A stretch of 64,000 nucleotides of DNA from Spartobacteria bacterium (GTDB taxonomy: Bacteria; Verrucomicrobiota; Verrucomicrobiia; Chthoniobacterales; UBA10450), in assembly GCA_003167555.1 (NCBI GenBank), contig PMSN01000011.1, positions 248,001-312,000 on the forward strand. Reading direction: 5' to 3'. The stretch's first letter is position 1. Each line of letters starts with the position of its first letter. A program made the translations under genes and the position numbers. The notes under the pieces are model-generated. The model was not told the origin of the DNA, ran no database searches, and was given only the letters and a program-made list of their open reading frames with translations. Positions 29,764-33,686 of this stretch are shown here, one piece after another.

Positions 29764-30519
29764 TTAGTTGGGAATATAAACGCGTTCGCCGCCCGGCCCG
29801 ATGCGCCAGCGAGGAGGTGAGATGCGCCGCCGCGGCGGACCGAACTCAGGCGTGCGTGGTCGCGGAAGAAGATCAAGCGCCGCCAGCGTTTCCAAGTCGA
29901 GATGCCCGGTCAGCGTGAGACCGAAGCGCGATTGGTATGCTCGCAGCGAGAATTCCATGTTCGGTCCGAAAACGCCGTCAATTTCGCCGCGGAAATATCC
30001 GCCGCGCGCCAGCGTCGTTTGCGCATCGACAATCACGCGGCGTTGCACTTCCGGCGGCGCAACTTCATAGGGCGTCCCGTCAAAGAGCCCGCTCGGCTCC
30101 GGCCGCGGCCCACGCGGTCCACGAACATCAGCGCGCTCATCTGCTCTGTCATCGAACTCTGGGGGCGATGGCCGCGGCGTCCGCTCGGTTTTAGGCGTGG
30201 GCGATTCCGCGCGCAAATCCGAGGTGTCTGGAAACGGCGTGGCGGAGGCGCGAGGTCGTGGCGCGGCCGGCAACGTCGGGGTCACACCGAGAGATCGTTG
30301 CGTTTCGCCGTCGAGTTCGCCGGTGATTTGGAGCCCATTGCGAATTTGATAGCGGCGGAGCGCGGCGCTCGTGTCCGCGTCTTTTTTGCCGTTGATCTCC
30401 CCGTAATAAAAGCCGTCGTCCTTTAATTTTTGCTGCGCCGATTCAATCGCGTGATCGGCGCTTGCGAGAGACAAGGCGGCCAGGAGAAGCAGGGCCGTAA
30501 CGAACAACTTTCCTTTCAT
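29764..30519 (-). CDS. Secreted protein with two peptidoglycan-binding modules
   Basis: 251 residues. The signal peptide is at about 1-21. Module 1 is at about 28-80 (AQQKLKDDGFYYGEINGKKD, ALRRYQIRNGLQITGELD) and module 2 at about 165-215 (AQTTLARGGYFRGEIDGVFG, LRAYQSRFGLTLTGHLD). They are separated by a Pro/Arg-rich acidic linker. The C-terminus is Pro/Arg-rich (RRISPPRWRIGPGGE). It has no catalytic domain and probably anchors to or remodels the cell wall. It is the last gene of the minus-strand run that starts with UBact, 33 bp behind the amidase. Confidence 0.78.
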   Translation of the reverse strand: MKGKLFVTALLLLAALSLASADHAIESAQQKLKDDGFYYGEINGKKDADTSAALRRYQIRNGLQITGELDGETQRSLGVTPTLPAAPRPRASATPFPDTSDLRAESPTPKTERTPRPSPPEFDDRADERADVRGPRGPRPEPSGLFDGTPYEVAPPEVQRRVIVDAQTTLARGGYFRGEIDGVFGPNMEFSLRAYQSRFGLTLTGHLDLETLAALDLLPRPRTPEFGPPRRRISPPRWRIGPGGERVYIPN

Positions 30520-30552: not shown

Positions 30553-31341
30553 CTATTCATCCACCGGCAGGTTCACGACCAGAGGCGTGCGCTGCTGCTG
30601 CAAGACATCTCGATATCGCCCCACGCCGTCGCTGATCGCCGCGGCGATTTGTTCGCGATAGTTCTCCGTCGCCAGTTTGCTCACGTCCTCTTTGTTCGTC
30701 AGAAAACCGCCTTCCACCAGCACCGCCGGATGCCGCACATTCGCGATGACGAAAAATTGTTGCGGTCTCGTCCCGCGATTCACTGCCTGCGTATGCGCCA
30801 CGAGCTCTTCCTGTATAAAGCTGGCCAGGCTCTGACTCTCCGAGCTGGCCGACTCCAATGACGCTTTCTGAAGAAACGGCAACCACGACATCAAACGCTC
30901 GGGAATCGAGACCTGCCGCGCCGCGTAATAAGTCTCGATGCCAGTCGCGGCGGGCCTTCCCGCTTCGTCAAAATGAATGCTGATGAAAATGCAATTGGGT
31001 TGCTCGTTCGCGATCGCGGCGCGCGCGGAAAGCGAAATGTAGCTGTCGTCCGCGCGGGTGAGCATTGTCACGAGACCCCGCGACTGGATGAGCCGCTCGG
31101 CGCGACGCGCCACATCCAGCGTCAAATCTTTCTCCACCATGCCCGCCTTCATCGTCCCGGAATCCAAACCGCCGTGCCCGGGATCGATCACCACGACCGC
31201 GAACGGTTGTTCGCTCGCGGGCTTCTGGGTCGTGTCTGGAAATGTGGCAAGCCGGGGCAAGAGTTGCAGCCAGACGAAGGACGCCGCCATCAACAGCAAG
31301 CCAAGCCAGGCGAGAATCGACCGTCCGATTTCTCGATGCAT
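30553..31341 (-). CDS. N-acetylmuramoyl-L-alanine amidase (Amidase_3)
   Basis: 262 residues. An N-terminal membrane helix or uncleaved signal (about 8-28) precedes the catalytic domain. Zinc-ligand motifs of Amidase_3 are visible: VVIDPGHGGLDSGT (His), then the Glu in MVEKDLTLDVARR, and ISIHFDEA (His). The catalytic Glu is in PAVLVEGGFLTNKED. It cleaves the amide between muramic acid and the stem peptide in the periplasm. It begins 13 bp after the proteasome alpha gene stop on the same strand, so co-transcription with the proteasome is likely; I know no functional reason for that pairing. Confidence 0.9.
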   Translation of the reverse strand: MHREIGRSILAWLGLLLMAASFVWLQLLPRLATFPDTTQKPASEQPFAVVVIDPGHGGLDSGTMKAGMVEKDLTLDVARRAERLIQSRGLVTMLTRADDSYISLSARAAIANEQPNCIFISIHFDEAGRPAATGIETYYAARQVSIPERLMSWLPFLQKASLESASSESQSLASFIQEELVAHTQAVNRGTRPQQFFVIANVRHPAVLVEGGFLTNKEDVSKLATENYREQIAAAISDGVGRYRDVLQQQRTPLVVNLPVDE

Positions 31342-31354
31342 GGTGGTTTTGAAC

Positions 31355-32134
31355 TCAGTCGCCCAGCGGCGCCCGGATTTCTGCTTCCGTCAAAGCGCGA
31401 TACCGGATCGCGATCTTGTCGCTGCGCTCGAGCAGCGCCGCCTCGATGCCCGCCCCCCGCAGGCGTTCCTTTCGCGCCGCGAGAATTTTGTCGCGCGCGG
31501 GAAGTTCCTTCACGCCGCCGTCGCCGAGCGCGAGATGTCCGACCGTCCAGGCATCCAGCGCGATCTTCAAGGCGCGATCGAAAGTCGCGCCGGTTGAATG
31601 CTCGGCGCGCAGAAAATTTTCCATCAGCTCCGTCGATTGCCGCGTGCCGCTGAGCACGCCGAAATCCTGCCGCGTTTGCCCGAAGCTCGCGCTGTTGGTG
31701 GCGATGGCGCCGTCGTAATCCAGCCGCAGAAATAAATCGCCTTCCTGTTTCGCACCGATCTCGGCGAAAAGAAGACGCGCCAGATAAGGGGCGCCGTAAA
31801 CTTGTTCGAAGGCAGTTTTCAAAAGCGGGCTGAGCGAATAATGCGCCAGGCGCCGCAATGAAACATCGGCAGCCGAGCGCGTGAAGCCCTCGGTGCTGGC
31901 GAGTTCGATCGCCGCCATCCGCAGCCGCTCGATATCGCCCGGATGCCCGATCGCCCCCATCGCAATGCGATCGTAAATTTCGAAAAGTTTCTGCCGCGCC
32001 GGCCCGAGCGTGAGAAACAGAATTCCGTCCCGATACCCGACTGCCACGATCGGGCTGCCCGCCGCGAGCTGCGTCTCGATGTATTCGGCGCGATTCGCGA
32101 TCGCCTCGACCCAGCGGTATGGCTCCTCGATCAT
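31355..32134 (-). CDS. prcA: Proteasome alpha-type subunit
   Basis: 259 residues from ATG 32134, which overlaps the beta-subunit stop (ATGA). The start MIEEPYRWVEAIANRAEYIE and a following GSPIVAVGYRDGILFLTLG match the actinobacterial/UBact-type alpha subunit, where a short N-terminal helix gates the pore and no N-terminal catalytic threonine is exposed. GAIGHPGDIERLR and LFAEIGAKQEGDLFLRLDYDG are typical Ntn-fold segments. It forms outer rings around PrcB. Seen here: order UBact-beta-alpha and start/stop overlaps. Known: such operons occur in Verrucomicrobiota and some other phyla. An ATPase such as Mpa/ARC is not in the window. Confidence 0.88.
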   Translation of the reverse strand: MIEEPYRWVEAIANRAEYIETQLAAGSPIVAVGYRDGILFLTLGPARQKLFEIYDRIAMGAIGHPGDIERLRMAAIELASTEGFTRSAADVSLRRLAHYSLSPLLKTAFEQVYGAPYLARLLFAEIGAKQEGDLFLRLDYDGAIATNSASFGQTRQDFGVLSGTRQSTELMENFLRAEHSTGATFDRALKIALDAWTVGHLALGDGGVKELPARDKILAARKERLRGAGIEAALLERSDKIAIRYRALTEAEIRAPLGD

Positions 32135-32946
32135 GCGACGCTTCGTTTGAAGAGCGCGGCGATCCGCTTCTCCGGCAACGTGGTGATGCCGTCGCGACAA
32201 ACGATCTTGATCACCGGGAAAATTTTCGCGTTGCGATCCACGCCGCCCGTGGCCGTGTCCGATTCCGCCGCGGTGTCGAGCGCGCGCAACGCCACCGTCA
32301 CCGCTTCATCTTCGGTCAACTTTAGCAGCGGCTTCTTGCCCCAGGTGTTTTCGTAAAAAAGAATTCCGCGCACCGCCGGCGATCCCGAACCGGTCGCGGC
32401 GTAGTCGGTCACTTCAAATTGCGCGCCCATCGCGTCGTAAAAATAAAGCCGCGCCGAAGGATCAGCGCCGGAATCGTAAGTCGCGAAGATCGGAACGACC
32501 ACACCGACGCCCTGGAGAACGAATCCAAAATTGTCGCGCAACAATTTCGAAAGTGCGCGCACTTTTCCATCGACGCTCATCTCCTGCAATTGCGTGCGCC
32601 GGAAGAACTGGAAGGAATGCTCGAGGACGCGCGCCATTTCCCACGCCGTCGCCGGCACTCCCGCGATCGCCATGATCGAATGCCGGTCGATTTCGAGCAC
32701 CTTGTCCGCGCGATCGAAAACCACGGTGTTACCCGCCGTGGCGCGCCGATCGCCCGCCACGAGGACGCCGCCTTGAAATTTGAAGGCCAGAATCGTCGTC
32801 GCTTCCGTCGGCACCCACGCGGAGTTCGCGGTGACGGAACCCGCTGTCGGCACAGCGGCAAGAAGGCCACGGCGGCGCAGCAACGCGGGGAAATCGTCAC
32901 TCGCTCCAGAGAAACTCTGGTCGAGCGCCTGAGCGGCCGGGTCCAT
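32131..32946 (-). CDS. prcB: Proteasome beta-type subunit (catalytic)
   Basis: 271 residues from ATG 32946; an overlapping GTG at 32949 is possible. A propeptide of 49 residues precedes the mature N-terminus TTILAFKF. Counting from that threonine (Thr50) as 1, Asp falls at 17 (VAGDRRATAG) and Lys at 33 (DRADKV), the three catalytic residues of active proteasomes. FDRADKVLEIDRHSIMAIAG and YAATGSGSPAVRGIL also fit. It is therefore predicted to be a proteolytically active beta subunit, matured by self-cleavage. The start overlaps the UBact stop (TGATG), so modifier and protease are translationally coupled. Confidence 0.93.
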   Translation of the reverse strand: MDPAAQALDQSFSGASDDFPALLRRRGLLAAVPTAGSVTANSAWVPTEATTILAFKFQGGVLVAGDRRATAGNTVVFDRADKVLEIDRHSIMAIAGVPATAWEMARVLEHSFQFFRRTQLQEMSVDGKVRALSKLLRDNFGFVLQGVGVVVPIFATYDSGADPSARLYFYDAMGAQFEVTDYAATGSGSPAVRGILFYENTWGKKPLLKLTEDEAVTVALRALDTAAESDTATGGVDRNAKIFPVIKIVCRDGITTLPEKRIAALFKRSVA

Positions 32947-33116
32947 CACTCTCCCGTGCGCTGGCGATACCGCTTGGACTGGTTCGGATCCACCTTGCGC
33001 ATTTTTTTTAGAAGGTCCCTCGTGTCGGGCCGCGAAATGTCCGGCGACCGCGGGCCGTCTCCATCGCCTTGCTTTGGTCCCCAGGGAACCGCAGGCTTTT
33101 GAATGCGCTCAGGCAT
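32946..33116 (-). CDS. ubact: UBact, ubiquitin-like protein modifier of the proteasome system
   Basis: A 56-residue frame, easy to miss because of its size. It opens MPERIQKPAVPWGPKQG, has a Gly/Asp/Pro-rich disordered first half, then RPDTRDLL (residues 30-36), KKMRKVDPNQSKRYRQR (37-53) and ends in T-G-E. This is the pattern of UBact, the Pup-like modifier predicted in Nitrospirae, Verrucomicrobia and other non-actinobacterial phyla that carry 20S proteasomes; the C-terminal G-E or G-Q is the expected conjugation end. Ending in Glu, it should not need deamidation. The stop overlaps the prcB start. No Dop/PafA-like ligase is in the window, so it must lie elsewhere. Confidence 0.93.
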   Translation of the reverse strand: MPERIQKPAVPWGPKQGDGDGPRSPDISRPDTRDLLKKMRKVDPNQSKRYRQRTGE

Positions 33117-33145
33117 GCGAAAAAGTTAAAAGATAATTCAGGGAA

Positions 33146-33191
33146 AGGCAAGCTGAGCGCCTGTTCGCGACCCGCGTGCGCGGGCTTGCCT
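33146..33191. other. Inverted repeat between the divergent UBact and LysM genes
   Basis: AGGCAAGC (33146-33153) and GCTTGCCT (33184-33191) are perfect complements around a GC-rich centre. The site lies in the 105-bp divergent promoter region. It could be an operator or transcript hairpin; no regulator is suggested by the sequence. Confidence 0.3.
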
Positions 33192-33221: not shown

Positions 33222-33686
33222 ATGAAACGCTTCGCCCTTTGCACTTTTTCTCTTCTGCTGGCGGCGACGATTTGCACCACCGCCCCGGCCCAGCCGCCGC
33301 CGGGAGACAAATCAGACAAGGCGCTCCTCGAAGCTCTGATGAAAAAAATCGACGAGCAAAACGCGAAGATCGATGCGCTTTCGCAGCAGATTTTGAAACT
33401 CGAGCAGCAAGTGTCCGCCATCCGTCCCGGCGTCATCATCGGAGAAACACCGTCCGCGCCTTCCACGACCGTGTCCACTCCTGAGGCCCCGAAACCCACC
33501 CAGAGCGGCAACAATCACGTCGTCGCGAAAGGCGAGACGCTGACTTCCATCGCGAAGATGCACAAGGTGAGCGTGGAAGAACTGCAAAAATTCAACCATA
33601 TCGAGAACGATCGGAAGCTCCAGATCGGCCAGACGATCATGATTCCGCCGCCCGCCACCACTCCGACTCCTTCGCCCAACGGGTAA
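33222..33686 (+). CDS. LysM-domain secreted protein
   Basis: 154 residues from ATG 33222. The signal peptide ends near TAPA-QP. A predicted coiled coil follows (about 32-65, LLEALMKKIDEQNAKIDALSQQILKLEQQ), then a Thr/Pro linker, then one LysM domain at about 99-145 (HVVAKGETLTSIAKMHKVS, LQKFNHIENDRKLQIGQTIMIP) that binds N-acetylglucosamine-containing glycans such as peptidoglycan. The stop codon shares its last base with the start of the GYF_2 gene (TAATG), so the two are coupled. Confidence 0.85.
   Translation: MKRFALCTFSLLLAATICTTAPAQPPPGDKSDKALLEALMKKIDEQNAKIDALSQQILKLEQQVSAIRPGVIIGETPSAPSTTVSTPEAPKPTQSGNNHVVAKGETLTSIAKMHKVSVEELQKFNHIENDRKLQIGQTIMIPPPATTPTPSPNG

Follow-up and report, generated by a model that had tools for sequence, protein, structure and literature searches.

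A short operon of a Spartobacteria bacterium of the Chthoniobacterales encodes a ubiquitin-like modifier and a 20S proteasome core, and the question is whether it stands alone or is one part of a larger system. UBact, a ubiquitin-like system found outside Actinobacteria, has seen little experimental testing. The window, that is the whole stretch of 64,000 nucleotides analysed here (on contig C23 of the draft genome), appeared to a sequence-only reading to lack a ligase, a depupylase-like enzyme and an ATPase, and the operon was called unusually minimal. This description does not hold: genes assigned to the Dop and ARC/Mpa types are found on a second contig (C3) and one of the PafA type on a third (C6), and such dispersal is usual in the family. 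The operon looks minimal because the window excludes the rest of the system, which is on other contigs. We put at roughly 0.85 the probability that the window holds the modifier and the core protease of a complete UBact system for tagging and degradation, the genes of which are distributed over three places in the genome. Judged from its sequences, this is a genuine and complete UBact-proteasome system of known kind, with conjugation predicted. Of the new points, three are the most useful: the dispersal of the genes, the tyrosine-free tail of the ATPase and the drift between Gln and Glu at the end of the modifier.

The UBact modifier

The UBact gene occupies positions 32946..33116 of the minus strand and encodes 56 residues ending in RQRTGE. 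The protein scores 82.1 bits against NF033388 in the NCBIfam profile search (curated cut-off 35) and 79.5 bits against PF20513 in the Pfam search (curated cut-off 27.8). UBact is its sole match at E <= 1 in the two collections, and the Pup profile is not matched. The first identification of this frame as UBact ending in R-T-G-E is thereby borne out. In a comparison of the window's gene with 79 relatives, divergence is 11% at first, 7% at second and 48% at third codon positions, and by this measure UBact is under strong purifying selection at the protein level. The same divergence, together with the presence of UBact in 55 of 61 family genomes, excludes a chance open reading frame and disposes of the suspicion that the small frame might not be conserved in relatives. 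The UBact stop and the ATG of prcB have one base in common at the GAGTGATGG / TGATG junction, as read directly from the sequence.

The C-terminus in the window is RTGE, i.e. Gly-Glu, and not the GGE or GGQ by which Pup is recognised. Both Gly-Glu and Gly-Gln endings are known for Pup (PMC3511204), and in this respect the two modifiers are alike; UBact differs from Pup in lying outside the Pup family and in ending TGE rather than GGE. Iyer et al. 2008 (PMC2588565) named Methylacidiphilum and Chthoniobacter flavus as Verrucomicrobia with Pup and PafA, and the G[EQ] ending given there is also that of the present modifier. When 81 UBact loci are read to the stop, the last residue is Gln in 67 and Glu in 13, the window included, and one locus is broken; 80 of the 81 end in Q or E, and intact frames show nothing else. 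Mapped on an 84-row prcB tree, this residue requires no fewer than 11 changes, compared with 12.3 for shuffled labels, and is hardly clustered, although the tree was built by a fast search, many of its forks are weak and its well-supported branches force only 5 of the 11 changes. Such nearly unclustered switching is the pattern expected if Dop deamidates the terminal Gln of UBact, and it constitutes indirect evidence that this deamidation may work in the group.

The PrcB-PrcA core

The beta subunit gene, prcB, extends over 32131..32946 of the minus strand and encodes 271 residues, 49 of which form the propeptide. Its start is the ATG at 32946; the in-frame GTG at 32949 is a mechanical start of the open reading frame only. 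PrcB scores 171 bits against TIGR03690, under the cut-off of 191.9, and 100.5 bits against PF00227, and among PDB entries it matches bacterial beta subunits best. The alpha subunit gene, prcA (31355..32134, minus strand, 259 residues), is more distant from its models: 88.4 bits against TIGR03691 (cut-off 139), 24.7 bits against PF00227 (cut-off 22.4), and 3.5e-17 for PrcA in the PDB. Its predicted structure is of medium confidence (pLDDT 68) and is taken as support only; among the Foldseek matches listed, the best 50 are without exception proteasome entries of M. tuberculosis. The two proteins are, by these scores, divergent members of the bacterial 20S proteasome families that miss the curated TIGR03690 and TIGR03691 cut-offs.

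In the phmmer alignment residue 50 of PrcB (codon 32797-32799, minus strand) falls on the first residue of mature beta chains and is the predicted Thr1. Asp17 and Lys33 are correctly spaced behind it, and each is kept in all 84 aligned PrcB sequences. Thr1 is kept in 83 of the 84, the exception being a locus (L100) deleted or misassembled at this point. The earlier expectation of an active beta subunit with exactly spaced Thr1, Asp17 and Lys33 is thus in accord with the alignment. In PrcA the lysine of the alpha pocket (K49) is kept in 76 of 76 sequences. The prcB stop and the prcA ATG overlap as ATGA, and the overlap is of 4 bases in 69 of 78 loci; read directly, both this junction and TGATG confirm the overlapping starts that had been reported.

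Some loci depart from this arrangement. In a MAG contig (L100, 700-1525) a deletion or misassembly takes out the UBact C-terminus and the Thr1 region of prcB. About 2.1 kb are inserted between prcB and prcA in L106 (4520-6641). An unrelated membrane-protein-like frame directly follows prcB in L111 and L113 (genomes G211 and G212), where prcA is found elsewhere in the genome. A prcA search of genome G210 (locus L109), which has UBact and prcB, gave none.

Partner genes and the proposed pathway

The genome is a draft of 4.2 Mb in 29 contigs and is 98% complete; separate contigs give no distance between loci. The search that had been proposed for Dop/PafA-like and Mpa/ARC genes finds two Pup-ligase-family (PF03136) genes (549 and 414 bits), one each on C3 and C6, and one proteasomal ATPase, and the absence of a PafA-like ligase, which had been named as a possible refutation, does not apply. 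The ATPase lies on C3, about 4.5 kb and two genes away from the Pup-ligase-family gene of the same contig. Its best model is pup_AAA (446.7 bits, under the cut-off of 504.75), and its OB-fold N domains followed by AAA make up the Mpa/ARC-type architecture. The C3 ligase-family protein matches solved Dop with 418 bits and PafA with 259, and scores 484.8 bits against TIGR03688, just under the cut-off of 492.3, versus 391 against TIGR03686. Since the PDB matches, the NCBIfam models and the Dop-loop, which is present in 19 of 19 Dop-type proteins, all agree, the C3 gene is assigned to the Dop type. UBact alone passes its curated NCBIfam cut-off, whereas prcB, prcA, Dop, PafA and the ATPase are all below theirs.

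The system would thus comprise three loci: ubact-prcB-prcA-amidase-PG-binding in the window (C23), mpa/arc and dop on C3, and pafA on C6. The presence of the genes, the conservation of catalytic residues and of the tail, co-occurrence, dispersal and the Q/E switching are observed, and we infer each enzymatic and binding step from sequence. UBact would be made with a C-terminal Gln or, in the window's genome, Glu. The Dop-type enzyme would deamidate the Gln forms and take UBact off its targets, and the PafA-type ligase would link target lysines to the terminal Glu through its gamma-carboxylate. UBact would be captured by the ATPase ring, whose tyrosine-free [VI][VI]-COOH tail would dock in alpha pockets that retain their lysine; the ring would thread the target into the barrel of PrcA and PrcB, and Thr1 of PrcB would do the cutting. 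With a complete list of parts and their locations, and with Chthoniobacter flavus as an isolated relative, conjugation can be tested directly.

UBact systems are reportedly the subject of a paper by Lehmann, Udasin, Livneh and Ciechanover (2017, BBRC 483:946). The present system resembles them in that the modifier is above the curated cut-offs and adjoins prcB-prcA, and that PafA-, Dop- and ARC/Mpa-type partners are in the genome, and differs in having its genes at three loci and not at one, as those systems are said to have. The actinobacterial Pup-proteasome system (Pup, Dop, PafA, Mpa/ARC and PrcAB) uses the same families of enzymes and core, but its ATPase tail is GQYL rather than [VI][VI], its ligase has a different alpha-loop, and its genes, unlike those described here, are in one locus.

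The C-terminal tail of the ATPase

Fifty ATPase loci yield 33 distinct C-terminal stretches, all 33 of which end in [VI][VI]; some genomes occur twice, under separate locus ids, in the lists of ATPase tails and of UBact loci, and counts are of distinct sets where so described. The linker ahead of the end is 12-17 residues long, the last two included, and is freely variable. The mycobacterial tail, GQYL, docks next to an alpha lysine (PMC12288473, PMC8223512, PMC8755798). The penultimate tyrosine of GQYL/HbYX is found in none of the 33 distinct tails, and Mpa and PafE need GQYL for opening of the proteasome (PMC12288473). These two facts would suit an arrangement in which the tagging enzymes and the ATPase work but the ATPase stays undocked from the 20S core, conjugation and proteasome being uncoupled. 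We consider this unlikely, though it is the strongest of the alternatives. The last two positions of the tail have entropies of only 0.61 and 0.44 bits, versus 1.9-3.5 bits at the preceding eight, the pocket lysine of the alpha subunit is invariant, and the proteasome genes co-occur with the tagging genes. Filling the hydrophobic HbYX pocket is reported to suffice for gate opening in the archaeal proteasome (eLife 2025, PMC12352868), and this result would fit docking by a tail devoid of tyrosine. In the preferred reading of a coupled system the [VI][VI] end would be a docking signal of a different shape, and its conservation would widen ideas on what opens the 20S proteasome.

Extent and surroundings of the operon

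The operon also had to be redrawn at its downstream end, for it runs past position 31355 into two further genes. An N-acetylmuramoyl-L-alanine amidase gene (Amidase_3; 30553..31341, minus strand; PF01520, 170 bits) lies 13 nt behind the prcA stop. It is followed on the same strand by a gene for a peptidoglycan-binding protein with two PG_binding_1 stretches (29764..30519; PF01471, 92.8 bits). Both genes are likely to belong to the same operon as ubact-prcB-prcA. Among the 75 loci in which prcA is complete, the amidase start is at most 38 nt from prcA in 63; the gap is 167 and 371 nt in two others, and there is no value in ten, three of which are the f6 outgroup. These values lean short, since each is measured to whichever in-frame start codon lies closest to the end of prcA. 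The peptidoglycan-binding gene is present in 67 of the 80 named loci. On the other side a LysM-domain gene (33222..33686, plus strand, start chosen by eye; PF01476, 52.9 bits) is transcribed divergently, as it is in 34 of the 37 named loci whose flanks are complete.

The adjacency of amidase, peptidoglycan-binding and divergent LysM genes to ubact-prcBA in most Chthoniobacterales loci could indicate that the proteasome operon serves mainly the upkeep of the envelope, being co-transcribed with the amidase and the peptidoglycan-binding gene and turning over cell-wall enzymes or their regulators. This idea rests on neighbourhood; the amidase is absent from L108 and L109 and was not seen in the three f6 rows, and an extracytoplasmic amidase is no obvious substrate of a proteasome. 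We regard it as improbable and retain the general tagging system as the explanation of the operon.

Upstream of UBact a tentative candidate promoter, TTGCCT-N17-TAACTT (33123..33151, minus strand), is kept among 8 near relatives in the form TTGCCT-N17-TAnCnT. A consensus promoter scan of the region upstream of UBact gave none. The element stops 6 nt short of the UBact ATG and there is no clear Shine-Dalgarno sequence; the UBact mRNA may possibly be leaderless. An inverted GGCAAGC...GCTTGCC pair joins the upstream regions of UBact and the LysM gene. When the regions upstream of ubact, mpa, dop and pafA were compared by eye in near relatives, no operator common to all four was found; sigma-70-like elements were seen ahead of ubact and mpa only.

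The PafA-type ligase

The C6 protein is assigned to the PafA type since TIGR03686 is preferred, the Dop-loop is lacking and the gene has the pafA place in complete rows of the system. The margin is small, 314.8 bits against TIGR03686 (cut-off 551.3) versus 305.3 against TIGR03688. The Dop-loop is missing from 19 of 19 PafA-type proteins. The C6 gene is the counterpart of the gene at the pafA place in the rows of three loci, L163-L165, each gene of the window's genome matching the gene at the expected place. The N-terminus carries GIETE, a form of the GhExE motif described for PafA (PMC2588565).

Could the C6 gene be a second Dop-like hydrolase, the ligase being missing or non-homologous? A slight preference of phmmer for solved Dop (240.6 bits) over solved PafA (225.9) speaks for it, as does the composition of the alpha-loop. 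This region, which is helical in PafA and a loop in Dop, matters for interaction with the target, and a Thr-Thr pair in it is described as conserved in both enzymes (PMC7947786). In the alignment of 19 PafA-type proteins the pair is missing; the region reads YQWVQFNR in the C6 protein and nearly all others, with YEWVQFNR in f6 and YPWVQFNR in L184. Against a second hydrolase stand the features on which the assignment is based, TIGR03686 being the best NCBIfam model, and the full-length Dop that is already present. The proposal is very improbable, and a ligase missing outright was rejected upon finding the PafA-type gene on C6. A more detailed hypothesis may be put forward tentatively, at somewhat less than even odds: the UBact ATPase of Verrucomicrobiota would dock via [VI][VI]-COOH, distinct from HbYX/GQYL, the ligase would choose its targets through a different alpha-loop, and the terminal residue would drift freely between Gln and Glu as Dop erases the difference.

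Co-occurrence and dispersal of the genes

UBact is found in 6 of 145 genomes of the phylum sample, and the same six hold two PF03136 genes each. A prcB-type match is found in 7 of the 145. The seventh genome (G064) is without UBact or Pup-ligase matches, and its prcB-type gene (C303, 3170-3844; 161 bits) has two in-frame TGA codons, indicating recoding or a pseudogene. Within the family PF03136 is present in 60 of 61 genomes, and the six genomes without UBact are 53-91% complete. The ATPase is found at E <= 1e-60 in all 48 genomes searched, which were picked for family membership or UBact presence.

In the family ubact never shares a contig with a PafA-type gene (0 of 43 family genomes with both) or with dop (0 of 49), nor pafA with dop (0 of 40). 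dop and the ATPase are on one contig in 22 of 30 genomes, with gaps of 10 bp to 9.3 kb. The counts refer to draft genomes, with coordinates pasted by hand and with full-length or nearly full-length matches only for the pafA type. In the three f6 genomes, which are more distant but of the same class, all six genes form one row, mpa-dop-ubact-prcB-prcA-pafA. Among the 80 named prcB loci pafA lies upstream of ubact in Chthoniobacter flavus (L103) and L107 only; both belong to the 37 loci whose 6-kb flanks are complete. In the window's family the genes are, as a rule, dispersed. According to Iyer et al. 2008, PafA homologues and Pup adjoin each other in the genomes of all bacterial lineages (PMC2588565), unlike the situation in this family, and a review calls the gene order rigidly conserved (PMC3511204). 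Neither the ATPase tail nor split loci in this group came up in the literature searched, the original UBact paper apart.

A relic, decaying under relaxed selection with its genes scattered and the mpa-dop gap so variable, is the least probable reading of all and was rejected, for all parts are kept in nearly all near-complete genomes, the catalytic residues are invariant and UBact is under strong purifying selection. The UBact system persists, rather, without the gene linkage once used to recognise it, and neighbourhood-based surveys would miss parts of it.

The two genes between the ATPase and dop on C3 we take, by eye, to be flavoprotein-like and DUF885-like. Such a pair lies between mpa and dop in L116 (6400-9548) and likewise in four of five genus-mates, the fifth (L156) having the DUF885-like gene alone. 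In the window's genome two PDZ/trypsin-like protease genes, HtrA-type by eye, are convergent with pafA (L117, 6635-9810).
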